In this document: positions 12,980 to 34,440 of the stretch, in pieces
Layout of the letters: each line of letters begins with the position of its first letter
Position numbering within the stretch: position 1 is the stretch's first letter
Origin: Granulosicoccus sp.
GTDB lineage: Bacteria; Pseudomonadota; Gammaproteobacteria; Granulosicoccales; Granulosicoccaceae
Length of the DNA: 64,000 nucleotides
NCBI GenBank assembly: GCA_023301725.1
Contig: JALZUD010000013.1
Location: forward strand, 62,001-126,000
Direction of reading: 5' to 3'
Position numbers and translations under genes: made by a program
The notes under the pieces: generated by a model
What the model saw: only the letters and a program-made list of their open reading frames with translations
The model's database searches: none
What the model was told of the DNA's origin: nothing

Positions 12980-15900
12980 ATGGAAAACGGCATATTTGCC
13001 TATATTTTGCGATACAGCAGGAAGCAGCAACTTAAGTTGTTGCTGATGATTATTGCCTCGTTCCCATTTTACTACCTGAGCCTCGATTTACCCAAAACGA
13101 TTATTAATGAGGCCATCGGCGGCATTGAATTTCCTGTAACCGCCACGTTCGACATTTTTGGCTTACAGCTGTACTTTGGCACCTACGAACAAATTCCTTA
13201 CCTATTGTTGCTATGCCTCGCGTTTCTGATGCTGGTTATTGTCAACGGTCTGTTCAAACTCTTCATCAATATTTATCGGGGGTTGCTTGGCGAGCGCATG
13301 CTACGGCGTATGCGACTTCAACTTATTAACCGGATAATGGAATTCCCGTTAGCGCGTTTCCGCCGCACCAGTCAGGGCGAATTGGTGTCAATGGTTAATC
13401 AGGAAACCGAACCATTGGGCGGTTTTATTGGCGAATCTATATCCCTACCCTTGTATCAAGGTGGGTTGCTATTAACTATTTTGACCTTTATGTTTGTCCA
13501 AGACTGGCGCCTTGGACTGGCGTCTATTGCCTTATACCCAGTACAGGCCTGGTTAATCCCAAAATTACAAAGGCAAATTAACCTGCTTAATCAGGAGCGC
13601 ACTTTGCGTATCCGAAGCCTGTCGGAAAATCTGGGTGAAGTGGTAGCTGGCATCAATGAGGTCCATGCCAATAACAACTTACGATTCTACGATCATCATT
13701 TTTCAATCCTTCTTGGCGTTATCTATTTTATTCGGATAAAGATCTACAAAAAGAAGTTTCTTATTAAATTTTTAAACAACTCGTTCGCCCAAATAACGCC
13801 GTTCTTCTTTTTCCTTATCGGTGGTGTCCTCGTTATACAAGGCAACCTATCCATTGGAGCGCTGGTGGCGGCACTTGCAGCCTACAAAGATCTTTCACCT
13901 CCATGGAAAGAGCTTTTAAGCTGGTATCAGGGGCAAGCGGATGCTCGTTTGCGCTACTCCGTGCTTGTTGAACAATTCCAGCAGGACGAATCAGATTCAG
14001 CATCAGATCCTAAAATACACACCGAACCTGTCACTCAACAGGCAGCCCTACCCATGGTTGCCAGTAGAGTCAGCTTTACACAGAGCAACAGAGGTCAGGA
14101 GATCAACAGTGCGTCGTTGACGATTGAATCTGGGGATTGGATCAGCCTAGTGGGTGCAAGCTCGAGCGGCAAAGGCACTATGGCTCAGCTCTGCGCACGG
14201 CTCATTGATCCTACCGATGGCAAGCTGCATTATGCCAACCAGGACAGCACACAAGTGCCTCGAGCAGCCACCACCATGTCAATAGCCTATGTAGGCCATG
14301 ATTCTTATGTGTTTTCGGGCACGGTGCGCAGCAATCTTCTGCAAGGATTAAAACAACAGCCGCAAACCAATCTAAGCGCTGAAGGACGCAGTTCAGCGCT
14401 TGTTGAGAATATTAAAAAAAGCGACTGGGAGCGTGAAGCTGGTCTGTCAGGCAATAGCGATCTGGCCCTGGATACCGATTGGATTGATTACGAAAAAGCA
14501 GGCGTGGATAGTCCAGAATCATTGTCCACCACTATTGCAACTGTGCTCAACACAGTGGGTGCAGCTGACGATATTATCGGCAATGCCTTATCACAAAAAA
14601 TCAGTTCGCAACAAAAACCTGAATTGGTGAAGAGCATTCTCGAAGCAAGACACTTGTTCAAAGAGCAGATCATGGAGCAGGGGCTGGGATCAGTGGTGGA
14701 ATTTCTTGATCCAGAACAATACAACGACAATGCAACGCTTGCCGAAAATATTTTATTTGGTATATCAGACTTAGCTGAATTCTCCACAGAAGGTTTAACA
14801 CACCACCCTGTGCTGCGTGAGTTATTAAAAGAATATGATCTGGCCGATGCACTAGACAACATCGCTTTTGAGACTGCAAAAACACTGTGTGAGTTGTTTA
14901 TGGATCTGCCTTCAGATCATGAATTTTTCAGTCGGTACGACCTGGTTAACGCTGAGGATCTTGAGCAATTCGATCGCATACTACGCACTCTGAAAAAACG
15001 AAAGACCATCACCAAGCTAGTCACAAAAGACAAGGTGCTCATTAGATCCATCAGCTTCAAACTGGTCAGTGGGCGTCATCGCCTGGACATGCTCAGCGAT
15101 GACATGAAACAACGAGTCGTTAAACTACGAAAGAAATTTACACAAAAACTTGATGACAACTCTCGCAGTCATATTGACCGCTTTTCTCCAGATAAATACA
15201 ACTCATTGGTATCCATCAGAGAAAACATTATTTTTGGACGAATCGTTTATGGTCGCCTTGGTTCACACAAAAAAGTGCAGGCAATCATTCTCAACGTACT
15301 GCAAAGCTTAAACTTGATGCCACCCATTTACGAAGTGGGCATCGCTGCCAAAGTTGGACTCGCCGGAAGCCTTCTCAGCGTCACACAACGACAAAAGCTG
15401 GCGCTTGCCCGAGGATTACTAAAACGCCCTGAGCTCTTAGTGATCCACGAAGGCCTGAATGCAACCAGTACCGAAGAGACGCACGTCATATTGTCAAACA
15501 TCAAAGAACAGCACCCTAATATCAGTGTACTCTGGGTGGACAACGATTTGCGCTTCACCGACTTGTTTGACAAATACGCCTACTTTCAATCTGGCAAGCT
15601 CGACCGCATTGAAGAGCCATCCAACAAGGTAGATCTTGCCAAAGATAGTGATTCAGACGAACCACGGCAACTTGCAAAACCGGCTTCTGAGGAGACGCGC
15701 CGGGTTCTCAAAGTGCTCGATCAAATTCCTCTTTTTGCCATGCTTGATACTCATCAGCTTCATCTTTTAGCAAGGGGTTGTGAGTCTGTGACACTACCTG
15801 AAGGTAAAAGGCTTTTCGCTCAGGGAGATGTTGGTGATGCTCTCTATGTGGTCGTTGATGGCATCGCTGGTGTTTTCCGATCAAAAGACGGCATTGAAAC

Positions 15901-16138
15901 AAAGGTAGGAGAATATGGCACTGATGAAGTTATTGGTGAACTTGCCTTGTTATCTGACAACCCTCGATGGGCCTCAGTTGATGCTCTATCCAAGCTCAGC
16001 TTACTAAAACTTAAACGCCATGTTTTCCTTGAAACAATACGTTCCAACGGTGAAATTGGCTATCAAATATTGCAAGTAGTGAGCAATCGCTTTTCATCTA
16101 GCAATCCAAGTAGTTCGAACAATTCAATTGATTCTTAA
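12980..16138 (+). CDS. ABC-exporter-like protein with degenerate ATPase and cyclic-nucleotide-binding domain
   Basis: A 1052-residue inner-membrane protein. Residues about 15-335 form an ABC-exporter membrane domain. The nucleotide-binding domain is altered at every key point: Walker A is GASSSGKGT (392-400, Gly after Lys398 instead of Ser/Thr); the Q-loop Gln is missing (YVGHDSYVFSGT); the signature is LSVTQ (799-803); Walker B is LLVIHEG (His823 for Asp); and the H-loop reads VLWVDND. About 350 residues are inserted between the Q-loop and signature, carrying two further Q-loop-like echoes, AENILFG (588-594) and RENIIFG (747-753). Residues about 905-1040 are a cNMP-binding domain with GELAL (Glu987) and PRWAS (Arg996) intact. 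ATP hydrolysis is doubtful; ligand-gated or scaffold function is my inference. Confidence 0.8.
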   Translation: MENGIFAYILRYSRKQQLKLLLMIIASFPFYYLSLDLPKTIINEAIGGIEFPVTATFDIFGLQLYFGTYEQIPYLLLLCLAFLMLVIVNGLFKLFINIYRGLLGERMLRRMRLQLINRIMEFPLARFRRTSQGELVSMVNQETEPLGGFIGESISLPLYQGGLLLTILTFMFVQDWRLGLASIALYPVQAWLIPKLQRQINLLNQERTLRIRSLSENLGEVVAGINEVHANNNLRFYDHHFSILLGVIYFIRIKIYKKKFLIKFLNNSFAQITPFFFFLIGGVLVIQGNLSIGALVAALAAYKDLSPPWKELLSWYQGQADARLRYSVLVEQFQQDESDSASDPKIHTEPVTQQAALPMVASRVSFTQSNRGQEINSASLTIESGDWISLVGASSSGKGTMAQLCARLIDPTDGKLHYANQDSTQVPRAATTMSIAYVGHDSYVFSGTVRSNLLQGLKQQPQTNLSAEGRSSALVENIKKSDWEREAGLSGNSDLALDTDWIDYEKAGVDSPESLSTTIATVLNTVGAADDIIGNALSQKISSQQKPELVKSILEARHLFKEQIMEQGLGSVVEFLDPEQYNDNATLAENILFGISDLAEFSTEGLTHHPVLRELLKEYDLADALDNIAFETAKTLCELFMDLPSDHEFFSRYDLVNAEDLEQFDRILRTLKKRKTITKLVTKDKVLIRSISFKLVSGRHRLDMLSDDMKQRVVKLRKKFTQKLDDNSRSHIDRFSPDKYNSLVSIRENIIFGRIVYGRLGSHKKVQAIILNVLQSLNLMPPIYEVGIAAKVGLAGSLLSVTQRQKLALARGLLKRPELLVIHEGLNATSTEETHVILSNIKEQHPNISVLWVDNDLRFTDLFDKYAYFQSGKLDRIEEPSNKVDLAKDSDSDEPRQLAKPASEETRRVLKVLDQIPLFAMLDTHQLHLLARGCESVTLPEGKRLFAQGDVGDALYVVVDGIAGVFRSKDGIETKVGEYGTDEVIGELALLSDNPRWASVDALSKLSLLKLKRHVFLETIRSNGEIGYQILQVVSNRFSSSNPSSSNNSIDS

Positions 16139-16158
16139 AACACGGTTGAAAATGCCTA

Positions 16159-16617
16159 ATGTCTCTTAACGAAGAATATGAACTGCTTAGCCGTATTGAG
16201 TTGTTTGAAGAACTAAATCCTGTACAACTAAAGCGCTTGATTTTTGTGAGTCGCCGCTATCAAATTGAACCCGATGAGTACCTGTTCAAGCAAGGTGATG
16301 AAATGAGCCGGGTTTTCGCCGTCGTCTCTGGTGAACTTTCTGTTTTGCTCGATTCACCCTCTGGCGAGATACACGTTGCAATGAATTCTACAGGCGATCT
16401 GGTCGGTGAGATTGCCGCTATTTCTGGAGCTGCAAGAACCGCCTCCATTCGTGCTAACACCTATAGCGAAGTTATCGGATTTGAACGTGATCAGTTTGTG
16501 GACACGGTGACCAGCGATCCACCCACAGCCCTTCGATTAATGCAGCTACTATCTACGCGCCTGACACATCAAAACAACCAATTGCGTAAATTAGTGCAAA
16601 AAGGCGTAGTAATTTGA
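16159..16617 (+). CDS. Small cyclic-nucleotide-binding protein
   Basis: A 152-residue protein that is almost entirely one CAP-type cNMP-binding domain. The phosphate-binding cassette is GEIAAISGAARTAS, with the Glu and Arg that hold the cyclic phosphate and ribose. The short C-terminal helix has no DNA-binding domain, so it is not a Crp-like transcription factor. It starts 20 bases after the preceding gene, which ends in a similar domain, so the two are very likely co-expressed and may work together. The nearest cyclase is convergent and immediately downstream. Confidence 0.82.
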   Translation: MSLNEEYELLSRIELFEELNPVQLKRLIFVSRRYQIEPDEYLFKQGDEMSRVFAVVSGELSVLLDSPSGEIHVAMNSTGDLVGEIAAISGAARTASIRANTYSEVIGFERDQFVDTVTSDPPTALRLMQLLSTRLTHQNNQLRKLVQKGVVI

Positions 16618-16670
16618 ATGTTTAACCGCTCGCGGCATGACATGTTATTCACTTTTTAAAGACGGAAAAT

Positions 16671-18038
16671 TCAGCGCGGATTGTTGTCAAGTTTCGCCTC
16701 GAATACATCTATTGGGCTCTTGCGACCGCGAAGCAAAGCTGAACCTTGCGAGGTGAACGCAAACTGCTCATCGTTGCACAATTGGCGTGTTCTGGCAGAG
16801 ATAAGAATCGACACCTCCCTCTCTTTAGCAAGTTCCTGTAAACGTGCTGCAATATTGACATCATCGCCATACACGGTGTAAGTCAAACGACTGGATGTAC
16901 CAACGAATCCACCAACAACCTTGCCCGTGTTAATACCCGCTCGAGCTTTCAGAAAGAAGCCTCCTGATAACTGGGTCTTGCTAAGTATTGACTCAATCTC
17001 TAAGGCTGCCTCTACCGCATTGGTCGCATGATTTGGATCATCGCTAGGCAGATTGAAACTAGCCAGAATCGCATCCCCTTGAAACTGACTAATCACCCCA
17101 TGATGTCTCTCAATAGGCTCGGATATCAGTCGGAAATACTCATTTAAGGTCTTGATCAATTCGTCTGGAGTTAATCGCTCCGCAAGCGTAGTAAATGAAA
17201 CCAAATCAAGAAACAGTATGCTGGCTTCTCGCGTTTCTGTTTGCGTGTCGATGAGCGGACCTTCAGCACCCCTAATTTTCGCAGCCACACTCTCAGGTAC
17301 AAAATGCGACAGATTTTTAGCACTGGCTTTGTTAATGATCGATATGGTGAGTAGACGCCTGCTACGCGCAACAGCCAGGGTCAGTATTATCGTCACAACA
17401 AGAATGGAGATTACCTTGTCAATTTCCCCTCCCACCAACACTGAGTTTGAAGTTAGGTACTTCACATAGTCCCTAGTAATCCATGACATACCTGTTTCGT
17501 CTATCAGGGCCATAAACACCATAATAAGCCAACCCCCTGCTCCTACCAACCCCGACAACAAAACATAGCCGGGTTCCAGACGCAGCGCACGAAGCGAGAT
17601 AAATATAAAAATATACAACAACGTGGGAGACTTGAGATAGAAAGAGGGTGGTTGCATGTATTGCAAATGAAATGACCAGATCAGGCCCATTAACAGCCCC
17701 ATATCAACCAGGATGGATAGATTAAGCACCCAATGTGGCAAATTTCTTCTGTAAGCTGAGAAGAGACGCACACACGTAAACAGGAAATAAGTACCTAGAA
17801 AATAAGGAACTGGCTCAAACGCCGCGTTTTCCGGTCTGGTGGTAGGCGCGTTAAAATACAAGACTGTGAACACAAGCAGTATGAAGATCTGAATCCAGCC
17901 AATCAGACGCTCACTGCTCTCTTGTTGCTTAGAAATAGTATCGCTAATACTTTTAGGCAAATCTTGATCGACACCGCCAACCAACCAACCTTGAGCCACC
18001 TGATTCCAGGTTTTTAATTTTTTTCTAATTGAGCTCAA
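16671..18038 (-). CDS. Membrane class III adenylate/guanylate cyclase
   Basis: About 455 residues: an N-terminal membrane sensor with roughly six hydrophobic helices (45-230), then a class III cyclase domain. Metal-binding Asp residues are in ILFLDLVSFTTLAERL and in QFQGDAILASF; the transition-state Asn and Arg are in DDVNIAARLQ. The usual purine-selecting Lys is replaced by Gln (SQFQGD), so cAMP versus cGMP cannot be decided. The frame opens at a GTG at 18071, but the TTG at 18038 has a good AGGAAG site 7 bases upstream and is preferred. It is convergent with two cNMP-binding genes. Confidence 0.85.
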   Translation of the reverse strand: MSSIRKKLKTWNQVAQGWLVGGVDQDLPKSISDTISKQQESSERLIGWIQIFILLVFTVLYFNAPTTRPENAAFEPVPYFLGTYFLFTCVRLFSAYRRNLPHWVLNLSILVDMGLLMGLIWSFHLQYMQPPSFYLKSPTLLYIFIFISLRALRLEPGYVLLSGLVGAGGWLIMVFMALIDETGMSWITRDYVKYLTSNSVLVGGEIDKVISILVVTIILTLAVARSRRLLTISIINKASAKNLSHFVPESVAAKIRGAEGPLIDTQTETREASILFLDLVSFTTLAERLTPDELIKTLNEYFRLISEPIERHHGVISQFQGDAILASFNLPSDDPNHATNAVEAALEIESILSKTQLSGGFFLKARAGINTGKVVGGFVGTSSRLTYTVYGDDVNIAARLQELAKEREVSILISARTRQLCNDEQFAFTSQGSALLRGRKSPIDVFEAKLDNNPR

Positions 18039-18169
18039 GACAACACTTCCTGCGGTAATAGGCACGCACACAGTAGATCAAACACTAGGCACCCCTGAAC
18101 CCTCGGGTTTATCAATAATCAAGTTATCAATGCGCATTATATTTAGCTGATTATCTTGTTTTAGGAACC

Positions 18170-19045
18170 CTAGTCCAACTTCAGATCAAGCAACTGTAAC
18201 TCGCTATACAGATGATCGATTTCGTGTGCTTCAACCCGCTGGCTAATGTAATAGCGCGACACAGGCAAATCTTCAGCAACCCCATACGCATCAGGATTTT
18301 GAACAAACCGGCTGTCTGCACTCAACTTAGCGTGCCCATCCGGCAATAACTTATTGGCAAGCCCTTGGCCATGTTCCGCAAATAAGTCCAAATCGCTTGC
18401 ATACATCAAGTCATACCAAGTGACATTCTCACCTTTGCTTGTTACAGAAAAAAAGAGTAACGCCTGCAAGCCGCCGTGCTGCAAGAGTACCGGCGTTAGC
18501 GGTTGCTCTTGCATATCATCCATAAGTTGTTGTTGGTGAGGCTCGAGCTGCGGATATATCTCCAGAATATCTGTAGACACTGATAAGGGCGAAACGTTAG
18601 CAGAGCTACGCTGCCACACATATCGTGCATTTTCCAACACCTTAAAGCCAAGGGACTCAACAATACCCAGTGGCTTTTTTGAATTGGTCAGTGTGGCATA
18701 GGTCATCGATTTGTCTTTAACAGAATCAAGCAACATTTCGCGCCCCAAGCCTTGACCACGCAGTGATTTATCCAGATACCACGAGCTCATGCTGACCATG
18801 CGCTCGGGCCTCAGAGTGTTCTTGGCATTGCCAATGAGTCGATCAGAGTAGACCATCCCACAAAAACCCAAGATACCCGCCTCTGACTCCACGATACGTC
18901 CAAAATCTGGCTTCTCGGCGAGCCAAGAATACGTCATCAGCTTACGCCATCGGCTCACAGGGATACGCGAATTCATTTTTGTATGCAGCAAAGTGCAGAT
19001 GGGCCCTATGTCGTCCGCCGTTGCAGGTCTAATGACGGCGTTCAT
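18170..19045 (-). CDS. GNAT-family N-acetyltransferase
   Basis: A 291-residue protein. The N-terminal half is a GNAT domain: IRPATADDIGPICTLLH, then the acetyl-CoA pyrophosphate loop RGQGLGREML near residue 118 and a SLGF motif. The C-terminal 130 residues are not recognised. Its ATG overlaps the stop of the upstream deacetylase (ATGA), so the two are translationally coupled. A GTG 9 bases earlier is possible. In this setting it may acetylate an amino sugar, the reverse of the deacetylase, but its substrate is unknown. It is the last gene of the 29.6-18.2 kb operon. Confidence 0.78.
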   Translation of the reverse strand: MNAVIRPATADDIGPICTLLHTKMNSRIPVSRWRKLMTYSWLAEKPDFGRIVESEAGILGFCGMVYSDRLIGNAKNTLRPERMVSMSSWYLDKSLRGQGLGREMLLDSVKDKSMTYATLTNSKKPLGIVESLGFKVLENARYVWQRSSANVSPLSVSTDILEIYPQLEPHQQQLMDDMQEQPLTPVLLQHGGLQALLFFSVTSKGENVTWYDLMYASDLDLFAEHGQGLANKLLPDGHAKLSADSRFVQNPDAYGVAEDLPVSRYYISQRVEAHEIDHLYSELQLLDLKLD

Positions 19046-19836
19046 GCTGTCCACCTGAAAACTTCAACAGGTGCAATCCACCTCGCTCCGGCATGGTTGT
19101 CGACAAATTTTGCCAATTGCTCACAAAACTGCCAGCCATTTGCATCAAGATCAATATGGTGCGTCAAAAATCCAGTGTGCTCTTGTTCGCTAGCACCGCC
19201 AGTTCGGCGTGCAGCAAGGTGGATGACCAATTGATTGAGGGTCTTCTGTTCCCCTGCAAAAACTGTCCCACCCTTCCAGCTGATGGGATCGCAGTGCGAA
19301 TTGGCCACCACAAAGCCTTCATTTTCAAGAGGCACCTCCTGCGCACCAAACGCAGAAACGCCCGCATAGCCAACATCTATTAATCCTTGAACCACTTCTG
19401 GAGCGATACGATTCCATGGCGGTACGACCACAGGTAGAAACTGCGTACCAAACAGTGTGTGGAGACGTTCACGCCCTACCAGAAGCTCTTTCACAACAGC
19501 CTCCTCGCCACGATGAATCCCGAGTTCCCATGCACCCAACCCCTGTCCTCTAGGTGCATGGTTGATATGCGCATAGCCATGCTGCGCAACGCTCAGCAAT
19601 GCGAATTCGGACAATACAGGTGCTAAGCCGGGCTCTGCATTTGCCGGAATGACCGCAAGCAGCAAGCCGGTAGTGCGTGTCAGGTTAGTGAGTTGATCGA
19701 GTTTCGGTCCTGGCGCCACTGCGTCATCGTCACGCCACCACAACGTAGCTTGTTGCTCATTTGCCACCCAATGGTTCAACTCAGCATCCAGCTGATGCCA
19801 TGGAGTCGTTACCGAGCTGTCGCTTGATTTGATCAT
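19042..19836 (-). CDS. CE4-like polysaccharide deacetylase family protein (paralogue A)
   Basis: A 264-residue protein with a reduced NodB-type barrel. Candidate metal and catalytic residues are WRDDDAV (Asp36-38), HGYAHINH (His86, His90, His93), PPWNR (139-143, the substrate-groove Arg/Trp motif) and THH (225-227). No signal peptide is present, so it would act on a cytoplasmic sugar or lipid-linked precursor. A second copy with the same motifs is at 30602-31351. It is coupled to the GNAT gene and lies 62 bases after a glycosyltransferase. Deacetylation of an N-acetyl sugar is the family function; the exact substrate is unknown. Confidence 0.75.
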   Translation of the reverse strand: MIKSSDSSVTTPWHQLDAELNHWVANEQQATLWWRDDDAVAPGPKLDQLTNLTRTTGLLLAVIPANAEPGLAPVLSEFALLSVAQHGYAHINHAPRGQGLGAWELGIHRGEEAVVKELLVGRERLHTLFGTQFLPVVVPPWNRIAPEVVQGLIDVGYAGVSAFGAQEVPLENEGFVVANSHCDPISWKGGTVFAGEQKTLNQLVIHLAARRTGGASEQEHTGFLTHHIDLDANGWQFCEQLAKFVDNHAGARWIAPVEVFRWTA

Positions 19837-19898
19837 GGAGTTACGTCTCTACCCAAATACATCACCCAGACAATTTTCCGAGGCCATTATCAAAGAAT

Positions 19899-21038
19899 CT
19901 AAAGCATCTCAAGTATTCTAGCCGTATTGTCTGCGCCCTCAGTGTTGAGCATAGTGGCCTCAGGAGGTATAGATTGTGACAACACAGCTCGCATAGCGTT
20001 CGCTAGATATTTCACCGATAGTTCGCTTTCCAACACCGTGGTTGCCAACCCCATAGCCTGCAAACGTCGCGCTCTATCGAGCTGCTCAGTTTCAGTCCCC
20101 ATACTGAACGGAATCAACAAACAGCGGCAACGAGCTTGTAATACGTCCGACACTGTATTGTAGCCAGCTTGAGATATTGAGAGCTTTGCACCTGCTAATA
20201 AACCGGTAAAGTCATCGCGAAAGCGTTGCAAAACCACACCAGCCGGAACAGCGCGCGCCATTGACTCAAAAACAGGCTCTGGAAGATTGGGACCAGTGAT
20301 GACACACATAGACCCAAGATCAGGGTATTCGCTGGCCACGCCAATAACACACATTAATAATTTTTCACCCACAGCTCCGCCACCTGCAGAGACAACAATA
20401 TCGAATTGATCTTTTGACTCGTGCATGTGCTGTGCACTGATAAGACCTGTGTAACAGAGTTTTGTCGCAATACTTGCGCTCTCCGAAAAACTATCACCAA
20501 GCGGTGCAAACGATTCATCGCCATGCACCAACACCTTGTCGAAGTGCTGCGATATCAACTGTGCTGTCTGAGCATCGCGCCCAGGCTTGACTCTTTTTTG
20601 CAGGATGTCGCGAACAGAGCAAACCAGTTTTGGCCTAGGCTGTGTACTCTCGATAGCATCAATCAACGGCAACAATTCAAAGCGCACTTGGCGCCGACCA
20701 AATGGATACGCTTCAAGAACCACGATGTCAGGCTGGAAAGCGCTATAGGTTTCCAGTAACTTATCTCGCCGGTGATTTCTATAATCATCATCGATAGGCG
20801 TGTTGTCAGCGTCTACCAGAACACTAAAATCATCTTTAGAGACAGCTATGGGAGGTAGCTGAACTTGCCTTGCCCCTTCAATCGCAAAGTGTGGCACCGG
20901 CGATCCACCAGATACCACCATAACGTCAAAGCCGTGATGTACCAATGCTTGTGCAATACGTTTGGCGCGCATCAGGTGCCCGATACCTAGCAAGTGCTGA
21001 ACATAAAACAGCACTCGTTTGCTATGTATCTCAGACAT
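19899..21038 (-). CDS. GT-B glycosyltransferase, GxGH type (copy 1)
   Basis: A 379-residue glycosyltransferase resembling MurG and the COG4671 predicted transferases. The N-terminal motif LLGIGHLMRAKRIA (Gly18, Gly20, His21) and the C-terminal nucleotide-sugar site around SQAGYNTVSDVLQ, followed by PFSMGTETEQLDRA, are clear. The frame is open to 21119, but the ATG at 21038 is preferred: it overlaps the stop of the upstream GT4 gene by 8 bases (ATGTCTGA) and starts just before the first beta strand. It has the same architecture and motif positions as the gene at 22302-23513, so the two may add successive or alternative sugars. Confidence 0.82.
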   Translation of the reverse strand: MSEIHSKRVLFYVQHLLGIGHLMRAKRIAQALVHHGFDVMVVSGGSPVPHFAIEGARQVQLPPIAVSKDDFSVLVDADNTPIDDDYRNHRRDKLLETYSAFQPDIVVLEAYPFGRRQVRFELLPLIDAIESTQPRPKLVCSVRDILQKRVKPGRDAQTAQLISQHFDKVLVHGDESFAPLGDSFSESASIATKLCYTGLISAQHMHESKDQFDIVVSAGGGAVGEKLLMCVIGVASEYPDLGSMCVITGPNLPEPVFESMARAVPAGVVLQRFRDDFTGLLAGAKLSISQAGYNTVSDVLQARCRCLLIPFSMGTETEQLDRARRLQAMGLATTVLESELSVKYLANAMRAVLSQSIPPEATMLNTEGADNTARILEML

Positions 21039-23513: not shown

Positions 23514-23570
23514 GATACAAAACCTTTAACTCCATAACTTGATGCAAAATCAAGAGCACCTCATTTACCC

Positions 23571-25744: not shown

Positions 25745-25746
25745 AG

Positions 25747-27648
25747 CTATAGGGTGTCGTCAAGCCAGAAGGTATCGGGCATGTAAATACCCAGATAGCT
25801 GGTGGGCGCAAATCCGACCAGAGCCTCATCAGGCAAATTGCGTAACCGGGCGGAGCGAACTACGGGCTGCAAACTGCCGTTGACAGTGCCAATGGAAAAC
25901 ACCTGATCAGCATGAATCTCCAGCATCTCAATCCAGATTTTTTCTCGCTCCTCATCTTCAGAGGTCAACATCCACTCATCAAGCAACGCCCGTAGCCGCA
26001 ACACTTCCGGCATATCGGGTATCTGACCTTGCATTTTTGCGGACATGTAGTGCAGGCCCCAAACCGGCCATTGAAGCTGATCAATAGAGCTGGGGGCGAG
26101 TGCTGTTGGTGGCATCTGAGCCGATGGCAACCCGTTATCAAGGCCAAACCAGACCGACATCACAACCTGACCACCAGTAACCCGGCTGCGGAAAATATCA
26201 CGCTGTGACGAACGTACAAACAAGGCGATGCCAACCTCTCTGTAGTGATCCGCAATTAGCTCAAGCATGTCTGTTTGAAGCGTGCTGTCACCAGCAGACT
26301 CAATGGTTATATTGGCAACACGGCCATCAGGCAACAAACGGATGCCATTACCTGCCCGTTCAGTGAGACCTAGCTCGTCTAACAATGCATTTGCCTGCTC
26401 AGGATCAAAGCTGGCCCAGGCAGCGGCATACTCTGGTTTGAACAAAGGGCTTTCAGGTAAAACGGTGTCCGCACTTTCGTTAGCCAGACCATAGTAAATA
26501 ACCTGATTTATTTCACGCCGATTAATCGCCAGCGACAGTGCCCGCCGCATTCGCACGTCCTGAAACAAGGCTCTCCAGACTTCATCCTGGCAGTTAAGGT
26601 TGGGATACAAAGCAACACTGGATCCTTGTGTTCTGCGCCACAAAGACACTTTCAGTGGAAATCGATTCTCAGCCTCTTTTATCATTGTGTAATCAGGCAG
26701 CGCAATTCCGGTAACTTGCAAATCGCTTTCGCCCGTTGCTACCTTGGCACCAATGATTTCAGCAGAACTAACATTGAGCACGAGCTGATCTATGTATGGC
26801 AGCTGTTTGCCATTCTCATCAACTCTGTGAAAATAAGGATTGCGTTCGAACACAAATTGTTCGGCCGGTGGGAAGGTCGTTGGTCGCCACGCCTCAAGCG
26901 TGGGCAGTTCAGGATTTTCAGGTCTATTCTGTCGAGACATCTTACGGTGCAAGCCAACCCAATCGTCCACACGATTCTCTTCAATTAACCGGGCAAGAAC
27001 AGCATCCGTTTGAAAGTCAGTATGAAACTGCTGCATGTAGCTTGCTGGCAGTGCCAGTGTTTGAGGGATAGGTGCCGCCAGCAAATCTAGAAACTGCGGC
27101 ATGGGCACTTCCCATGTGTAGCGCACCGTCCGTTTGTTCACCACCTCAAAGACAGGGCCCTCACCATCTGACTTGAGTCTTGCCGGCATGCCCCCTCGCA
27201 GGATGTCACGATTAAGAATAACGTTATCCCAAAAGTAACTAAAATCTGCCGACGTAAGCTCACTGCCATCTGACCAACGATGTCCTTCGCGCAAATGAAA
27301 GGTAAATATTCGCCCCTCTTCTACCTCGTAAGACTCAAGAATATCAGGCACCAGATTGAGATCTTCGTCGTAACCGACAAGCCGTGAATAACTGAAGATA
27401 GGCACGTATCGAATATCTTTTTGGCGCCCGATGAGCATGCGCAATTTGCCGCCGTATTCACCGGGCATACGATCCATAGTCGTAAGGTCCACCACCCGAG
27501 GATTTTTAGGCAAACGCTCGTTTAGCGGTGGTAATGAACCTGAGCTTATGGCAGCGTCGTAATACGGCACATCGCTGGTATTCGCCAATAGCTGTTTGGG
27601 TAGTGTGGAACACGCTACAAGCGCGAGTAATTCACGGCGCGTCATCAT
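25747..27648 (-). CDS. ABC importer extracellular solute-binding protein, family 5
   Basis: A 633-residue periplasmic binding protein of the oligopeptide/nickel class (SBP family 5). The N terminus MMTRRELLALVAC has twin Arg, so export through Tat is possible, followed by a cleavage region near QLLA. Family landmarks are FHLREGHRWSDGSELTSADF near 120 and DVRMRRALSLAINRREIN near 370. It is larger than DppA and closer to YejA or to plant-oligosaccharide binders of the same fold. Substrate could be a peptide, a glycopeptide or an oligosaccharide; the flanking glycosyltransferases favour a sugar-containing ligand. Confidence 0.87.
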   Translation of the reverse strand: MMTRRELLALVACSTLPKQLLANTSDVPYYDAAISSGSLPPLNERLPKNPRVVDLTTMDRMPGEYGGKLRMLIGRQKDIRYVPIFSYSRLVGYDEDLNLVPDILESYEVEEGRIFTFHLREGHRWSDGSELTSADFSYFWDNVILNRDILRGGMPARLKSDGEGPVFEVVNKRTVRYTWEVPMPQFLDLLAAPIPQTLALPASYMQQFHTDFQTDAVLARLIEENRVDDWVGLHRKMSRQNRPENPELPTLEAWRPTTFPPAEQFVFERNPYFHRVDENGKQLPYIDQLVLNVSSAEIIGAKVATGESDLQVTGIALPDYTMIKEAENRFPLKVSLWRRTQGSSVALYPNLNCQDEVWRALFQDVRMRRALSLAINRREINQVIYYGLANESADTVLPESPLFKPEYAAAWASFDPEQANALLDELGLTERAGNGIRLLPDGRVANITIESAGDSTLQTDMLELIADHYREVGIALFVRSSQRDIFRSRVTGGQVVMSVWFGLDNGLPSAQMPPTALAPSSIDQLQWPVWGLHYMSAKMQGQIPDMPEVLRLRALLDEWMLTSEDEEREKIWIEMLEIHADQVFSIGTVNGSLQPVVRSARLRNLPDEALVGFAPTSYLGIYMPDTFWLDDTL

Positions 27649-29576
27649 TGTCTTAACTCTCCGGCATCAGCTGAACTTCGAGCAAGTACAACATGCCCGT
27701 TGCCTAGATCAACACTGGATAAACCGGTGTCAGCGTCAGCACAGAACACCTTATCCCAGTTTTGTGAAGCCGATTGGCTGGACGTGGCTGCAGTAGAGAA
27801 ATCCAACGGTCGATCAAGATCCGGAAATGGCACAGCATTCATTAATGATCGAGTGTAAGGATGAACCGGATTTTTCATGATGATTTCTCTGGGTGCTATT
27901 TCGACGATCTTGCCGGCCCACATAACCGCTACCCGATCCGCAATGTAGTCGATAACGGCCAGATTGTGAGAAACAAACAAATATGTCAACCCCATATCTT
28001 TTTGTAAGTCTTTTAGTAAATTGAGTATTTGTGCCTGCACTGAAACATCGAGTGCCGACACAGGCTCATCACAAATTATAAGGCTTGGCGCGAGCGCTAA
28101 AGAACGGGCAATACCGATACGTTGGCGCTGTCCACCAGAAAAACTGTGAGGATAGCGCTGCAGAGCGTTAGTGCCCATACCCACGGCCTTCAATAGCGCC
28201 TCTATTGCATTATTGCGTTGCGCGCGAGTGCCTCGCTCATGAATTTCAAAGGGCTCACGCAGAATATTTGAAACCGTCATGCGCGGCGACAATGAAGATA
28301 TCGGATCTTGAAAAATCAGCTGTATACGTGTGCGTAACTCTTCCAGCGCGGCATCCTGAACGGCCAATACATCTACAGGGCCTGCACCTTCATCAAAGAC
28401 AACACTGCCTGTATCAGGAGTTACCGCACGCATGAGAATTTTAGATAAAGTGGTCTTACCACTGCCACTTTCACCCACTAAGCCTAAGCATTCTCCGCGA
28501 TAAATATCAAAGCTCACACCGTCTACCGCACGCGCTAGTGCACTTTTGCTTTTTTTGAGTCGCCACTGTTGTTTACGGGTGACGTAGCTTTTACTGATAT
28601 CGCGCACACTGAGTATGACTTCCGGCGCTTTGTCGATGCTCAGCTTTGGAACCATGAGTTGATTATGTAAATCGTCAACATTTGTGTCAATTTCGCGAAG
28701 CGGTGTGAGGCGCGTGGCTCGATCCATATCAAAATGCGGGATTGCCCCCAGCAACCCCTTCAGATAAGGATGCTCGGGGTGGCGAAACAGGGTATCGATA
28801 GGCCCCGCCTCCATGATTTGCCCACGGTAGATAACCGACACCTCATCAGCCATGTTGGCCACCACACCCAGGTCATGGGTGATCAGCAAGATGGCCATTT
28901 TCAGGCGACTTTGCAACTCGGACAAAAGCTCTAAAATCTGTGCCTGTATTGTGACGTCCAAAGCGGTTGTGGGTTCGTCAGCAATCAGAAGCGCCGGCTC
29001 ACAGATCAGCGCCATAGCAATCATCGCACGCTGACGCATGCCACCAGACAGCTCAAAAGAGTACATGTCGAAAACTTTAGCAGGATCCGCAAACCCCACG
29101 AGTCCCAACATTTTTTCACAGGTATCACGTCGTTCCGCAGGCTTCTGCAACGTGTGCTCAGTGAGAATCTCTGATATTTGGTCACCAATGGTGTGCAATG
29201 GTGAAAATGAGGTCATTGGCTCCTGGAAAATCATGCCAATGCGGTTGCCACGGATTGAACGAATCTGGCGGCCATCATGTGGCAATTGGACCATGTCTTG
29301 CGGCTCATTTGACATGTCAGGGTCTGTGAATAGCACACGCCCACTGACTTCTGCATTGGCCGTTTGCAGCCCCATGACCACCTGACTAATGACCGACTTA
29401 CCCGAGCCTGACTCGCCAACCAGCGCAGTCACCTTGCCCGGTAGAACTCGCAAGCTAGCGCCTTTGACGGCTCTTACAGGCCCTGACACGCTTGGAAACG
29501 ATACGTGAAGGTCCTCGATGCGAAGTAAATCCGCTGTTGAAGCAAACTGATTATCTGTACTGGATGGGGCCGTCAT
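27645..29576 (-). CDS. Fused double ABC ATPase, DppD-DppF / YejF type
   Basis: A 643-residue ATPase holding two complete nucleotide-binding domains in one chain, as in YejF. Domain 1: Walker A GESGSGKS near 53, signature ELSGGMRQR, Walker B LLIADEP. Domain 2: Walker A GESGSGKTT near 365, signature FSGGQRQR, Walker B LIICDEP. Each is followed by the oligopeptide-transporter extension (HPYLKG, HPYTRS). It is the first gene of the leftward operon; its start is 71 bases from the divergent GT32 gene, so a divergent promoter region lies between. Both sites are intact, in contrast to the degenerate ATPase at 13-16 kb. Confidence 0.93.
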   Translation of the reverse strand: MTAPSSTDNQFASTADLLRIEDLHVSFPSVSGPVRAVKGASLRVLPGKVTALVGESGSGKSVISQVVMGLQTANAEVSGRVLFTDPDMSNEPQDMVQLPHDGRQIRSIRGNRIGMIFQEPMTSFSPLHTIGDQISEILTEHTLQKPAERRDTCEKMLGLVGFADPAKVFDMYSFELSGGMRQRAMIAMALICEPALLIADEPTTALDVTIQAQILELLSELQSRLKMAILLITHDLGVVANMADEVSVIYRGQIMEAGPIDTLFRHPEHPYLKGLLGAIPHFDMDRATRLTPLREIDTNVDDLHNQLMVPKLSIDKAPEVILSVRDISKSYVTRKQQWRLKKSKSALARAVDGVSFDIYRGECLGLVGESGSGKTTLSKILMRAVTPDTGSVVFDEGAGPVDVLAVQDAALEELRTRIQLIFQDPISSLSPRMTVSNILREPFEIHERGTRAQRNNAIEALLKAVGMGTNALQRYPHSFSGGQRQRIGIARSLALAPSLIICDEPVSALDVSVQAQILNLLKDLQKDMGLTYLFVSHNLAVIDYIADRVAVMWAGKIVEIAPREIIMKNPVHPYTRSLMNAVPFPDLDRPLDFSTAATSSQSASQNWDKVFCADADTGLSSVDLGNGHVVLARSSADAGELRQ

Positions 29577-29647
29577 GGAAAAGCTCGTTATCTCAACAGT
29601 GTGGATATACTACCGGTGTATTGCTCCTTCGACAAATTCTACTTGTT

Positions 29648-30622
29648 ATGTCATCAAAAGAGATCTTGAATAGGCGGCTGGCCGAGGCCACGGACCTTCG
29701 AAGTTTAGGCAAGTTCTGTGAGGCTGAAACACTGCTGCACGCCATCGAAAAGGATCCTGATAGCCATCTTCTGGGACCTGCCACTGTGCACGGCTTACCT
29801 CGACGTTTGCACGCAGCGTGGTTGAAGCTTGCTAAAGCTCAAGGCGACAGAATTCGGACCACAGGGCTTCAATACACGCTTGTCCCTCCTGAGGCCACTC
29901 TCAACCAATTTGCAACATTTACGCTGGCAGAACGCAAGCAGCTAGCCAACATCAATAGTCTTCGAGTACCTGCCCTGTTACATCAGATCTGGATAGGTGA
30001 CAAAGCTGCACCAGCGGGCACTGAGGCTTGGCGGCAACACGCAAAACTCAACAATATCGATTATCAACTGTGGGACGAGAACAAGCTTCAGACGCTGGGT
30101 ATTGAGAAAAATGCAGCCTATAACGCGATGCGTTCGAAGGGGGATTTACCCGGAGCAGTTGATGTGGCCCGCTACTTGATTCTTGAGCGTTTTGGAGGGA
30201 TCTATCTTGATTGTGACTGGTACCCAGTGCGCAACGACATCAGCTTTTTTGACCTATTACCCATGACAGGGCTCATAGCAATGCCCGAAAACATTCCACG
30301 ACAGACCGGTAAAGGTAGCCTGCTACTTGCTAATTCATTCATTGCAACACCTCCCGGGCATTTGACGTTCAAGCGGTTACTCGCCAGCATGGAGCACATC
30401 ATAGAGTTGCTTCCCAAAGCACCCGCCTGGTGGTCAACGGGACCGCTGCTATTTACATTAATGAGTCGCGGAGGTTCTGTGACTCTGGCAGATGCCGGGC
30501 TGGTGGCCGGCAATCTGCCGCAAACCACATCACTGCCAGAGGTTGTAAGCTGGTGCGAACAAAAACGCTTGAACGACAGTGGGCTGTTGCTAGCTTGGCG
30601 CTCATGGAGCCGTGAAGAGTAG
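29648..30622 (+). CDS. GT32-type glycosyltransferase with DXD motif
   Basis: A 324-residue protein. A helical, TPR-like N-terminal part (about 1-95) precedes a GT32-like catalytic region: VPALLHQIWIGD, then GDLPGAVDVARYLILERFGGIY and the metal-binding LDCDWYP (Asp188, Asp190). A TGPLLFT loop follows. Such enzymes transfer hexoses or phosphosugars from nucleotide donors. The frame opens at 29492, but the ATG at 29648 avoids overlapping the divergent ATPase start. Its last 21 bases overlap the convergent deacetylase gene. Confidence 0.8.
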   Translation: MSSKEILNRRLAEATDLRSLGKFCEAETLLHAIEKDPDSHLLGPATVHGLPRRLHAAWLKLAKAQGDRIRTTGLQYTLVPPEATLNQFATFTLAERKQLANINSLRVPALLHQIWIGDKAAPAGTEAWRQHAKLNNIDYQLWDENKLQTLGIEKNAAYNAMRSKGDLPGAVDVARYLILERFGGIYLDCDWYPVRNDISFFDLLPMTGLIAMPENIPRQTGKGSLLLANSFIATPPGHLTFKRLLASMEHIIELLPKAPAWWSTGPLLFTLMSRGGSVTLADAGLVAGNLPQTTSLPEVVSWCEQKRLNDSGLLLAWRSWSREE

Positions 30623-31351
30623 ATCAGATGCGGCCACCCAGCGAACCGCTGGATGCTTTTGCAACAAAGCTAGAGCCTGTTGTAAAAAATCCCAAGTGGT
30701 TGGTGTGTGCACAAGATGATGAGTGAGGATGCCTATAGTGGACCTGCCCGCATGCAATTGCGCAACGATCTCTGCCACAAGTTCACAGGATTCGCGCACA
30801 CCGTTACCACCTTTGGCGTAAATCACATCGATCTGCGTATTTAGCATGGGCACACCGGCGGATGCTTCAGGGCCAAATGTGGATACACCGGTGAAATCCA
30901 GCGCGCTCAGCTGCTTCAGAACACCCTCGGATATTCGGTTCCATGGTGGTACCAGTAAGGGTACAAACCGTGAACCGTGCAGCCGAGAAAGCTTTGCGAA
31001 GCCACGTTCCAATTCGCCAAGCACCTGCTCGATCGGCCTATCATCGCCAAGCTCACATTTTTTTTTATCATGCGGTGCGTGATTAGTGTGTGACCAACCA
31101 TGAACAGCCACCGACACACCAGTGTAACCTGCCAAGCGATGCACCAGTGCATCTCCTGTATGCTCAGGAATAACTGCCAAAGTGAGTGGCACGTTATTAG
31201 ATTCACAAACATCCAACAGCTGCGAAAGAGGCTCACTAGGCTCTACCGCATCGTCATCACGCAGCCAGAAATCAACCTGTTCGCCAGCTGCGGCTTTACT
31301 GTCCAACGCACCTCGCAGAGTGGAAAACGTACTCAGCTCTTGTCTATTCAC
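30602..31351 (-). CDS. CE4-like polysaccharide deacetylase family protein (paralogue B)
   Basis: A 249-residue paralogue of the gene at 19042-19836. The same signature positions are present: LRDDDAV (Asp32-34), HGWSHTNH (His84, His88, His91), PPWNRI (135-140) and a late THH. No signal peptide. It overlaps the upstream GT4 gene by ATGA and converges on the GT32 gene. Two paralogues, each next to glycosyltransferases, suggest two deacetylation steps or two acceptor types in one pathway. The length is short for CE4 enzymes, and the family call rests on motifs. Confidence 0.75.
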   Translation of the reverse strand: MNRQELSTFSTLRGALDSKAAAGEQVDFWLRDDDAVEPSEPLSQLLDVCESNNVPLTLAVIPEHTGDALVHRLAGYTGVSVAVHGWSHTNHAPHDKKKCELGDDRPIEQVLGELERGFAKLSRLHGSRFVPLLVPPWNRISEGVLKQLSALDFTGVSTFGPEASAGVPMLNTQIDVIYAKGGNGVRESCELVAEIVAQLHAGRSTIGILTHHLVHTPTTWDFLQQALALLQKHPAVRWVAASDLLFTAP

Positions 31352-32460
31352 TGACCAACAACCCGTTGCAATTGTTCCGCGAGCGTAGCACTCGCCCTAG
31401 GCAAACTGTGAAAGTTGCGCACATGCTCAACTGCATTGCTAGACATGGTTGTCAGTTGCTTTTCGTCATTTAACAAAGAGGCTATAGCTTGAGCATACAG
31501 TTCGTCGTTTAAGCCTTCAGTCAATAAGCCTGTTTTGCCATGATCTACAACCTCTGGCACACCCGCAATGTCGAACGCCACCACAGGCACTCCCGCGGCT
31601 TGTGCTTCCAGATAGGCAAGACCATAGGCCTCTCCACAACCAGGCCACACATAAAGAGAACTCTTTGCCAGCAGCTCAGCAATGGCCGATTGTTCAAGTA
31701 ATCCATGCCACTGCACACGCTTCTCTGGAATCTCTCTAAAGCACTCTTGCACTTGGTCATACAAGGGTCCATGCCCTATCACCGACAATGTCCATGGAAC
31801 ACCATGCAGCTGATTAAGCGCTGCAGCCAGATGCTCGAAACTGTTCATTTTATCGCCCGAACGCATCATGGCAACCACCACCATATGTCGATTTTTACGT
31901 ACTGTATTGGACACAAAAAACGGCGTAGCGTCGATAAACGGACGCACTTTAGCCAAGGAGGCCGTAGCTGAAGCTTGTTGCAACCCCACTTTGTCTCGTT
32001 CGGTAAAACACAGATTGACCGCCGCCTGATTAATAGCTTCTAACACCGTATCTTGCATTTCACCCCAAGCACTTGTTTCACGGCGTGGCGAATAGCTGGC
32101 TTCTGCAGTGATGTAGGGCACATCATATCTACGGCACAGTATGGGGCCGATTAAATCCGGGGACTTATAATACGGGTGATAGCAAAACCAGCACAAAGGC
32201 GGGCCCTCAATATTCCACAATGCCGACAAACGCTCTATTTCAAGTTCAGCCGTTTGCACAATGTCATTAACAAAGGAGCTATCCAACGGGTCGCGTATAA
32301 AAGCCCGAAGTGAAGATGCAATGCGAACATCGTACCCCGCCATCTCGAGTGCTTGCATCAACAATCGGCTCATCAGCCGATCTCCTGATGGTGAGGGATG
32401 ATCAACTGGCTTCATCGGTGAGTAGAATGCTATATACCTTCTGGGAGCTTTCTCTGTCAT
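31348..32460 (-). CDS. GT4-family glycosyltransferase (second)
   Basis: A 370-residue GT-B transferase with an N-terminal acceptor loop (KPVDHPSPSGDRLMSRLL) and the GT4 donor motif GEAYGLAYLEAQAAGVPVVA, then GVPEVVDHGKTGLL. The frame is open to 32601, but the ATG at 32460 begins the conserved region; the upstream 47 codons are low-complexity. It overlaps the deacetylase paralogue B by 4 bases. The 231-base stretch to the divergent phosphoesterase should hold both promoters. Confidence 0.83.
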   Translation of the reverse strand: MTEKAPRRYIAFYSPMKPVDHPSPSGDRLMSRLLMQALEMAGYDVRIASSLRAFIRDPLDSSFVNDIVQTAELEIERLSALWNIEGPPLCWFCYHPYYKSPDLIGPILCRRYDVPYITAEASYSPRRETSAWGEMQDTVLEAINQAAVNLCFTERDKVGLQQASATASLAKVRPFIDATPFFVSNTVRKNRHMVVVAMMRSGDKMNSFEHLAAALNQLHGVPWTLSVIGHGPLYDQVQECFREIPEKRVQWHGLLEQSAIAELLAKSSLYVWPGCGEAYGLAYLEAQAAGVPVVAFDIAGVPEVVDHGKTGLLTEGLNDELYAQAIASLLNDEKQLTTMSSNAVEHVRNFHSLPRASATLAEQLQRVVGQ

Positions 32461-32691
32461 CCGAGTGCCAAAGCCTTTATTTTTACAACGATTGTTATCA
32501 GAACGATTGTTACTACGACTGCTAAACAGATCGCTTGCGTACGGCAAATAATACACTCTGTCGATGCAGGACCTGCACAAAGAATTTTCATGCTGCGCCA
32601 ACCCGGGCTACTCATGAGACGTGTATGTCATGAACAATCAGGGTTAGGGTAAAGTACAAGCACTAAAGCTCCTACAACACGCCGCTAGCCT

Positions 32692-34440
32692 ATGCCCAGC
32701 CGAACAATAACAGAAGCCCCCCACCGAGTTGCTGTTATCGCCGATGCGCACTTGCACGACATCAACAGTGACTACGACTTCGAAGGATTGAACCTGAGTG
32801 GCGATCAATTAACCCTAAGAAGCTGGACCGATACACGTCGCTCCTCCCGCGTTTTCAATGAAAGTAAAGCTGCACTGATTTATACACTGCAAGACATTGT
32901 GGACCATGGCATAAAGTACGTCGTTTTACTGGGTGATTACTCTGACGACGGGCAAATAGAATCGATTGATCGGGTTAAGCAACTTCTGCATTCCTACTCA
33001 CAGCAATTCGGCTTACGATTTTTCGCGGTTAATGGTAATCACGATGCTGTCGCTCTGCATGGCAAACAGCAATCAACGCGCTTCGTACTAGACACAGAAC
33101 GAACAGTGCTTGTGACCAGCGACCCTAAGGTGGCAGCCTTTGAGCCGGACTCAGCTGTGTTGACTCATAAAATGTCTTGTGAAGGAGTAGCCAGTAGCGT
33201 TGGTAAGATGTCTGATTTTGGCTTATGTAACAGCCAAGACTTTATTCACTGGGAAACGCCTTTTGGCCTTGATGATTGTGTCAATTCAAGACGGTACAGC
33301 GCCACTTCCAACGATGGCGAAACCACCCACGAGCTGGTAGATGCGTCGTATCTGGTTGAGCCCGAAGATGGACTTTGGCTAATGATGATTGACGCCAATG
33401 TATTTGAGCCACGAAACGGCGGCGTAAACCCAGCAAAGAAAAAAGCCTTTATTGACAGCTCCGAGGCCGGATGGAACGCTGTGTTGCGTCAACGGCCACA
33501 CCTTTTGCGCTGGATAAATGATGTCACTATGCGCGCAAAAAACACCTGTAAGACACTACTAGTATTTTCACACTACCCTACCATTGACCCATTTGGTGAA
33601 ACAGCAGATCTGGCATTTGAATTGTTTGGCAACTACGATATGCATAGGCGTAGGCCTGAACAAGCTGTGGCAAAATCGCTATTGGATGCTGGCGTGAACA
33701 CACACTTCGCCGGTCATTTACACATACATTCAGTTTCACAATTTGCGCACAATAATCTCACGCTGATCGATCATGTGGTGCCCTCACTGGTGGCGTACCC
33801 ACCAGGCTACAAAATCATCGATGCAAGTGCGCACAAGCTCGACACCACGTTAGTTTCCATTGACAACATGGAACTCGATACGCGCCTGATCAACCATTAC
33901 ACTCAAGAGCAAACGTTGCGGGGAGTAGCTGACAAAGCAGCGTTTGGCGCCTCTAACTACGGTGAATTTCTCTATCATAGAATGCGCTTGAGGGCGATTC
34001 ACCACTACCTGCCTAGGGATTGGCCAGACGACATTACGCGCGCAGTAGCAAATACTTCACTTGCTGATCTGCTCATGTTGCTGAACGCCACGCAAGATAA
34101 CAATCCTGACGTGGCAAAGTTACACAAGGCAAAGCGACGTGACTCGTCGCTTAAAAACCACCCCTTACCGGTCGATCCCTCAATATCTGAAGACGATCTT
34201 GCTGGATGTGCAATGACAACGTTGATTGCAGACTGGTACTGCCTAAGACATGCAGGCAGTAATGCCTACCAACACATTACTCCTGCAAACCTTGCACTCT
34301 ATAGTGCACTGTGTGAGACGTTCAAGGAGCAAAACAGCCCTTGGCCACAAAAGCTCGACCCATCACACTACCGCTTTTTTCTGAACTTCATCAAACTGTT
34401 CAAAGGTGCTCTACAACGCGCAGACAACCCAGTGTGCTGA
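32692..34440 (+). CDS. Calcineurin-like metallophosphoesterase with unassigned C-terminal half
   Basis: A 582-residue protein. The dimetal phosphoesterase motifs are complete: DAHLH (Asp18, His20), GDYSDDG (Asp82), GNHD (115-118), FSHYP near 290, and GHLH (His342, His344). Residues after about 400 are mostly helical and match nothing I recognise. No signal peptide, so cytoplasmic. It may release phosphate from a nucleotide, sugar phosphate or lipid carrier; hydrolysis of the cyclic nucleotide made nearby is one option worth considering but is not indicated by sequence. It is divergent from the GT4 gene and convergent with the BON gene. Confidence 0.82.
   Translation: MPSRTITEAPHRVAVIADAHLHDINSDYDFEGLNLSGDQLTLRSWTDTRRSSRVFNESKAALIYTLQDIVDHGIKYVVLLGDYSDDGQIESIDRVKQLLHSYSQQFGLRFFAVNGNHDAVALHGKQQSTRFVLDTERTVLVTSDPKVAAFEPDSAVLTHKMSCEGVASSVGKMSDFGLCNSQDFIHWETPFGLDDCVNSRRYSATSNDGETTHELVDASYLVEPEDGLWLMMIDANVFEPRNGGVNPAKKKAFIDSSEAGWNAVLRQRPHLLRWINDVTMRAKNTCKTLLVFSHYPTIDPFGETADLAFELFGNYDMHRRRPEQAVAKSLLDAGVNTHFAGHLHIHSVSQFAHNNLTLIDHVVPSLVAYPPGYKIIDASAHKLDTTLVSIDNMELDTRLINHYTQEQTLRGVADKAAFGASNYGEFLYHRMRLRAIHHYLPRDWPDDITRAVANTSLADLLMLLNATQDNNPDVAKLHKAKRRDSSLKNHPLPVDPSISEDDLAGCAMTTLIADWYCLRHAGSNAYQHITPANLALYSALCETFKEQNSPWPQKLDPSHYRFFLNFIKLFKGALQRADNPVC

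Follow-up and report, generated by a model that had tools for sequence, protein, structure and literature searches.

A Granulosicoccus homologue of the PPP surface-glycan cluster of Sinorhizobium meliloti, with a pseudo-ABC protein and predicted cyclic-nucleotide receptors

The stretch of DNA analysed here, called the window, comprises 64,000 nucleotides of Granulosicoccus sp. (contig JALZUD010000013.1, positions 62,001 to 126,000) and carries at window positions 12980-34440 a locus of 16 genes, P0001 to P0016. Comparison with other genomes shows that this locus is a homologue of the cluster for the phazolicin-protecting polysaccharide (PPP) of Sinorhizobium meliloti, that its core is a trio of glycosyltransferases (GTs) in the order GT28-GT4-GT28, and that a degenerate ATP-binding cassette (ABC) protein, the pseudo-ABC, forms with a cyclic-nucleotide-binding domain a near-constant pair accompanying the trio. 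The locus is a variant from the Gammaproteobacteria, probably acquired by transfer, of a surface-glycan system that is real and chemically uncharacterised. It is read here as one module that would make, export and partly recycle an envelope glycan, tuned by a cyclic nucleotide, a reading to which we assign a probability of about 60 %. A first-pass annotation had already proposed one cyclic-nucleotide-linked glycan system, and the comparison supports this interpretation; all 16 genes that it named were found in place, and their annotation was mostly right as judged by Pfam.

Conservation of the locus and its relation to the PPP cluster

Co-occurrence was counted across 329 evenly sampled Pseudomonadota genomes, in which relatives of the trio member P0008 (threshold E 1e-10), the deacetylase P0014 (E 1e-6) and the pseudo-ABC P0001 (E 1e-40, scoring limited to the two best candidates per genome) are carried by 26, 27 and 23 genomes, respectively. 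P0008 is present in 22 of the 23 genomes with P0001 and in 23 of the 27 with P0014 (Fisher p 4e-28 and 3e-27, own genome excluded), and the distance between P0001 and P0008 is below 10 kb in 15 of the 22 genomes carrying both. Gene content was followed further in 24 homologous regions, mostly of 20 kb and belonging to 13 family codes, which were picked through their P0008 match and represent 24 of the 25 positive genomes other than the window's own (G097 omitted). P0007 was found in all of them, P0006 and P0008 in 23 each, the P0015 type in 20, P0014 in 16 and P0001 in 15. These counts are lower bounds because of the length of the regions; matches to P0005 and P0014 were apportioned by score, and the count for P0012 may take in unrelated ATPases. 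As 22 control genes from the remaining window gave one match in total across the same regions, the grouping of the locus goes beyond chance.

The trio order P0008-P0007-P0006, which the window displays, is collinear in 77 of 80 named loci, the best 80 of at least 590 matches chosen by P0008, and P0014 and P0015 are neighbours in 45 of them. P0001 was missing from the fetched DNA of 13 loci; a genome-wide search of 11 of these (not L031 and L057) recovered it in all 11. P0001-type matches adjoin P0005/P0004 in several genomes of the window's genus (L009-L012, L014-L016). The first-pass annotation had named conserved co-occurrence in distant genomes as support for one system; pseudo-ABC, cyclase, transferases and deacetylases do co-occur in this way (13 family codes, at least two classes), and alphaproteobacterial gene sets like those that it mentioned exist. 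Its membership list holds for the trio core and shrinks at the edges: P0004 and P0005 were seen in Granulosicoccaceae only (4 of 80 loci), P0016 in 14 and P0013 in 18 of the 80 loci. A gene of the histidine phosphatase family, often located between the transferase genes, occurs in 9 of the 24 regions (7 family codes) and has no match in the window.

The trio region of S. meliloti 1021 is located on pSymB at 837165-845065, and the matching region is smb21252-smb21271 by gene count. Locus tags were obtained by counting genes from exoF3 (smb21245, near 813.5 kb) in a gene table that is incomplete by its own note, and were compared with the gene order. Published names agree with the gene order in annotated ml28 for smb21247-smb21250 (deacetylase, aminotransferase, sulfotransferase and transferase) and for the cyclase smb21257. 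By this count, smb21252 is the P0015-type gene, and smb21265 probably encodes one of the two GT28 enzymes. According to PMC10128002, nine genes between smb21252 and smb21271 are required for PPP, an uncharacterised surface polysaccharide, and the minimal inhibitory concentration (MIC) of phazolicin drops from 1.47 to 0.18 µg/ml in smb21252 and smb21265 mutants. Orthologues in Agrobacterium tumefaciens surfaced in a pyocyanin-sensitivity screen, and several of the genes are likely involved in symbiosis (PMC10128002). The published mutants back the view that the product is a surface glycan.

Like the window, the PPP cluster contains the GT28-GT4-GT28 trio, a pair of P0015-type GT4 and CE4 genes, the importer, the pseudo-ABC, a cyclic-nucleotide-binding gene and a cyclase; the combination of pseudo-ABC and cyclic-nucleotide-binding gene, a trait of the PPP-type cluster, is thus present in the window. 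Unlike in the window, the binding domain is encoded by a gene of its own, and the cluster also has DUF3095, UDP-glucose dehydrogenase, polysaccharide lyase, MscS and MBL genes. No gene of the P0004, P0005, P0013 or P0016 type was detected in the 37 kb of the S. meliloti locus L111. Other S. meliloti loci could be set aside. The msbA2 operon (smb21188-smb21191) of pSymB also has GTs beside an MsbA-like exporter, yet it is a separate locus near 938 kb, and identity with it is ruled out by this position; the Clr-responsive nodP2-smb21248 cluster is adjacent but consists of other genes; smb20804/05, smb20811 and smb20813 were considered as well and abandoned. A literature search on the gene set as such found no paper, and the PPP paper was reached by locus tag.

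The five best named matches of P0008 are contigs of Granulosicoccus or Granulosicoccaceae, a gammaproteobacterial family (64-70 % identity). Across eight genomes of other classes, identity to P0010 amounts to 76-80 % in the six from f65, 65 % in G333 and 54 % in G192, and identity to P0008 to 61-62 % in the f65 genomes, whereas HtpG of the window genome, found in five of the eight, shows 44-48 % identity over its main matches. Transfer between classes is the simplest explanation of this difference, and the locus has probably been transferred in this way. IlvA was tried as a transfer yardstick and dropped: its matches were partial (best per genome 35-40 %) and probably paralogues.

Glycan enzymes and the nature of the product

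The trio is encoded on the minus strand by P0008 (22302-23513) and P0006 (19899-21119, start probably ATG 21038), which are GT28-like, the latter MurG-like, and carry Glyco_tran_28_C (PF04101), and by P0007 (21031-22305), a GT4 enzyme by Pfam. With P0015 (31348-32601, minus strand), a GT4 enzyme paired with P0014, and the DXD sugar transferase P0013 (29492-30622, plus strand, start possibly ATG 29648; PF04488 Gly_transf_sug), there are five GTs of three types, as annotated. The metal site of CE4 deacetylases is made up of an Asp-Asp pair and an HxxxH motif. P0014 (30602-31351, minus strand; PF01522 Polysacc_deac_1), the conserved CE4/DUF2334-like deacetylase of the locus, and its paralogue P0005 (19042-19836, minus strand) are 35 % identical and both keep the RxDD, HGxxH and HH motifs; R31, D33-D34, HGxxH, PPWNR and HH are invariant across five sequences, so that the metal site is retained. 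The genome comparison shows that a CE4-like deacetylase travels with the trio, and Candidatus Manganitrophus has a fusion of a P0006-like transferase with a P0014-like CE4 domain, which ties deacetylation to the P0006-type transferase. The GNAT-like acetyltransferase P0004 (18170-19054, minus strand, start probably ATG 19045) is lineage-specific. Most of the family labels given earlier are backed by Pfam; the GNAT match of P0004 is weak and falls below the cut-offs, and P0005 alone has no Pfam family.

The product might be a membrane glycolipid instead of a polymer, an alternative that we consider doubtful, albeit one to be taken seriously. The GT4 and GT28 families include glycolipid synthases, and among the 16 genes Pfam names neither an initiating sugar-phosphate transferase nor a polymerase or an outer-membrane exporter. 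However, rhizobial versions of the locus carry a polysaccharide lyase and a UDP-glucose dehydrogenase, distant relatives have an alginate-export porin, and the PPP paper describes the homologous cluster as a locus for a surface polysaccharide. The distant relatives are clusters on the Escherichia coli plasmid pCFSAN004181P and on a plasmid of Ca. Manganitrophus (L155, L156), which share related GT28 and GT4 enzymes with the window. Unlike the window, they have an ABC exporter that is canonical and keeps its motifs intact, together with APH-type kinases and the porin, which is of the AlgE type, and no cyclic-nucleotide gene is annotated in the stretches inspected. A literature search on these two clusters gave nothing relevant by title.

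The pseudo-ABC protein and the importer

P0001 (12980-16138, plus strand) combines an ABC_membrane domain, a degenerate ATPase domain matching the N-terminal half of ABC_tran and containing an insert of about 280 residues, and a C-terminal cyclic-nucleotide-binding domain (cNMP_binding). The membrane domain is of the type IV exporter kind (PF00664, E 3.9e-23, and structure comparison). In the ATPase domain, intact Walker A, Walker B, signature and H-loop motifs are replaced by GASSSGKGT, LLVIHEG, LSVTQ and a loop without the His, and motif counts in the alignment show that the ATPase motifs are lost in most members of the family. The insert is best read as two extra helical subdomains. The family therefore differs from type IV (ABCB/MsbA-like) exporters in its helical-subdomain-like insert, its lost catalytic motifs and its fused or adjacent cyclic-nucleotide-binding domain.

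Such a domain is fused to or directly follows the pseudo-ABC in 93 of 94 homologous frames, and a search placed it within 900 nt in 85 of 93; the 94 frames (92 distinct) and the 88 that were aligned contain near-duplicates, namely S. meliloti strains and at least two genomes under two ids. In the window, a stand-alone PF00027 protein, P0002 (16159-16617, plus strand), begins 20 nt past P0001, and its PDB matches are cyclic AMP (cAMP)- and cyclic GMP (cGMP)-binding proteins. The phosphate-binding cassette of PF00027 is characterised by a Glu and Arg motif. Both window domains read GE(L/I)A...R, and 89 of the 94 homologous frames fit a pattern that requires the motif; the domains of P0001 and P0002 are thus predicted cyclic-nucleotide receptors. 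The placement of the binding domain is not readable from the AF2 model of P0001, because pLDDT is below 50 over residues 932-1052.

Heterodimeric ABC exporters with degenerate halves exist, and P0001 could be the inactive half of one whose active half is encoded elsewhere, with pumping driven by ATP and the cyclic-nucleotide domain fine-tuning or stabilising the complex. TM287/288 and TmrAB are indeed among the structural neighbours of the P0001 model in the PDB, and invariant columns are denser in the membrane domain than in the ATPase domain. We nevertheless hold this to be unlikely: nearly all ATPase motifs of the P0001 family are gone, not one site, and when the 80 loci and the window were searched (E 1e-3) with the membrane domains of the canonical exporters from the E. 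coli plasmid and Ca. Manganitrophus clusters, a search that more distant exporters may escape, only P0001-type exporter matches were returned. P0001 is probably unable to run on its own ATP hydrolysis, which would make it a ligand-gated flippase or a switch on a transferase/export complex.

Other members of the family were noted. The window genome has a second pseudo-ABC, 32 % identical and with a fused cyclic-nucleotide-binding domain, located 1.6 kb from a divergent DUF3095 gene (G000:C12:75289-78285 and 79915-81051; L135, L136); no relatives of P0002-P0016 were assigned in the 28 kb fetched around it. Paralogues located off the glycan trio occur in several genomes (L137-L142, L144), G137 and G168 having two copies each. 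The S. meliloti frame measures 831 and 805 residues in the ml28 and 1021 records and 922 in strain 2011 (L111, L113, L114).

The importer is encoded on the minus strand by P0012 (27645-29576), a fused double ATPase with two ABC_tran domains, P0011 (25747-27648), a solute-binding protein (PF00496 SBP_bac_5), and the permeases P0010 (24746-25744, DppB/YejB type) and P0009 (23571-24749, DppC/YejE type), both BPD_transp_1. P0011 is similar over its full length (E 9e-61) to SPH1118, a pectin-binding protein of Sphingomonas sp. A1, but PDB entry 5ipw, labelled oligopeptide-binding, putative, scores higher (E 3e-84), so a pectin-type ligand of P0011 is putative. The import of a related molecule, as first proposed, is plausible in view of the kinship with SPH1118, with the label of the best match speaking against it. 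That label would also suit a nutrient-uptake operon that is independent of the glycan cluster and merely abuts it, as would the position of the importer 18-20 kb off the trio in G125, G327 and G224 and the detection of P0009 and P0010 types in just 12 of the 24 regions, limited as these are in length. This is improbable, since the importer is collinear in 57 of the 80 loci and, in all eight genomes tested, no more than about 20 kb separates P0008 from the closest relative of P0010.

The ten tight co-directional junctions reported earlier are confirmed as 4- or 8-base overlaps or gaps of 2, 20, 57 and 62 bases, with P0004 and P0006 starting at the ATG codons given above; an eleventh, P0003/P0004, measures 98 bases. 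From strand and spacing, the predicted units are P0001-P0002 (+), P0003 (-), P0012-P0011-P0010-P0009-P0008-P0007-P0006-P0005-P0004 (-), P0013 (+), P0015-P0014 (-) and P0016 (+). P0016 (32692-34440, plus strand; PF00149 Metallophos), a calcineurin-like metallophosphoesterase, is a peripheral member without a PDB match at E 0.01, and a role as cyclic-nucleotide phosphodiesterase could not be supported. The identified flanking genes (MinC, MinD-like ATPase, DNA polymerase IV, porin, lytic transglycosylase and HtpG) look unrelated to the locus. A GGDEF-EAL cyclic-di-GMP protein is encoded upstream at 6414-8141.

The proposed cyclic-nucleotide link and its meaning

Class III nucleotide cyclases use a pair of Asp residues for metal binding, Asn and Arg for the transition state and a Lys that specifies adenine. 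P0003 (16671-18071, minus strand; PF00211 Guanylate_cyc) is a membrane cyclase of this class with adenylate cyclases as PDB matches; aligned to bPAC, its FLDLVSFT, GDAIL and DDVNIAAR segments supply the metal Asp pair and the transition-state Asn/Arg. DUF3095 replaces the window cyclase in one relative and is a recurrent neighbour. It is predicted to have a tandem class III cyclase fold; the likeness came from fold comparison alone, as its sequence gave nothing useful against the PDB (best E 1.2). DUF3095 is present in 17 of 23 P0001-positive genomes and P0001 is missing from 29 of 46 DUF3095-positive ones, so that it is only partially a general partner of P0001. No paper on DUF3095 was found in open PMC full text. 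DUF3095 is followed in one Granulosicoccus relative by genes for a YcaO cyclodehydratase (Pfam) and a TfuA-like protein (by eye) (L031:9740-12270); beside the glycan operon, they possibly form a modified-peptide pair.

In the proposed module, P0008, P0007 and P0006 would build the glycan in the cytoplasm, with residues added by P0015 and P0013 and N-acetyl groups stripped by P0014 and P0005. P0003, or elsewhere perhaps DUF3095, would produce a cyclic nucleotide at the membrane; its binding by the P0001 and P0002 domains would change the state of the P0001 membrane domain, and this response would permit glycan export or activate assembly. P0009-P0012 would retrieve oligosaccharides, perhaps acidic ones, for reuse or sensing. 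A narrower and tentative version, which we think has less than an even chance, is that an ABC exporter fold with a dead, expanded ATPase domain has become a cyclic-nucleotide-gated membrane device, in which a dedicated cyclase, the unrecognised tandem cyclase DUF3095 included, would supply the cAMP or cGMP that opens or licenses the export of glycan directly.

Several observations weigh against the single-module reading. P0001 retains the Lys of Walker A and the Glu that follows Walker B, and its repeat alignments span only 32-51 columns, with hhalign probabilities of 88, 96 and 54 %. P0001 lies off the trio, on another contig or farther away, in 7 of the 22 sample genomes, one assembly being very fragmented. 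The usual cyclase Lys is replaced by Gln in P0003 and by Ser in 43 or more of the 56 matches to the cyclase in the fetched loci, which makes the identity of the P0003 product uncertain. The window shows no surplus of CRP-like sites (29 against 36.9 expected). A tblastn search of it gave no counterpart of UDP-glucose dehydrogenase, DUF3095, polysaccharide lyase or AlgE-type porin; the UDP-sugar dehydrogenase, a trait of the S. meliloti cluster (no match at E 1e-4), occurs in 11 of the 24 regions and is thus not universal and no firm requirement. Finally, the published cAMP link in S. meliloti is transcriptional and possibly indirect: according to PMC5498481, the 30-kb nodP2-smb21248 cluster, which adjoins the homologous genes and differs from them, has genes activated by the cAMP regulator Clr, and in PMC10128002 a cyaA mutant has a phazolicin MIC of 0.74 µg/ml, an effect that its authors call small. 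That the nucleotide acts solely through a global transcription regulator, the cyclase and binding proteins of the locus serving other targets and being neighbours by history, would agree with these effects of Clr and cyaA on polysaccharide genes or phazolicin fitness, yet it is quite unlikely, because history alone poorly explains a binding domain fused or adjacent to the pseudo-ABC in nearly all frames.

In conclusion, what looks new here is the signalling part: the pseudo-ABC family, together with the reading of DUF3095 as a likely cyclase, would surprise specialists. The comparison provides a membrane candidate in the pseudo-ABC, a likely receptor domain and likely cyclases, all conserved beyond the rhizobia, and DUF3095 gains a predicted function from fold comparison. 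The S. meliloti homologue is proposed to be a shield against an antimicrobial peptide and is tied to symbiosis by its authors. If the narrower version is true, the locus would encode an ABC protein gated by a second messenger, and cyclic mononucleotides would reach the cell envelope by a post-translational route; confirmed gating would represent a new use of the ABC fold.

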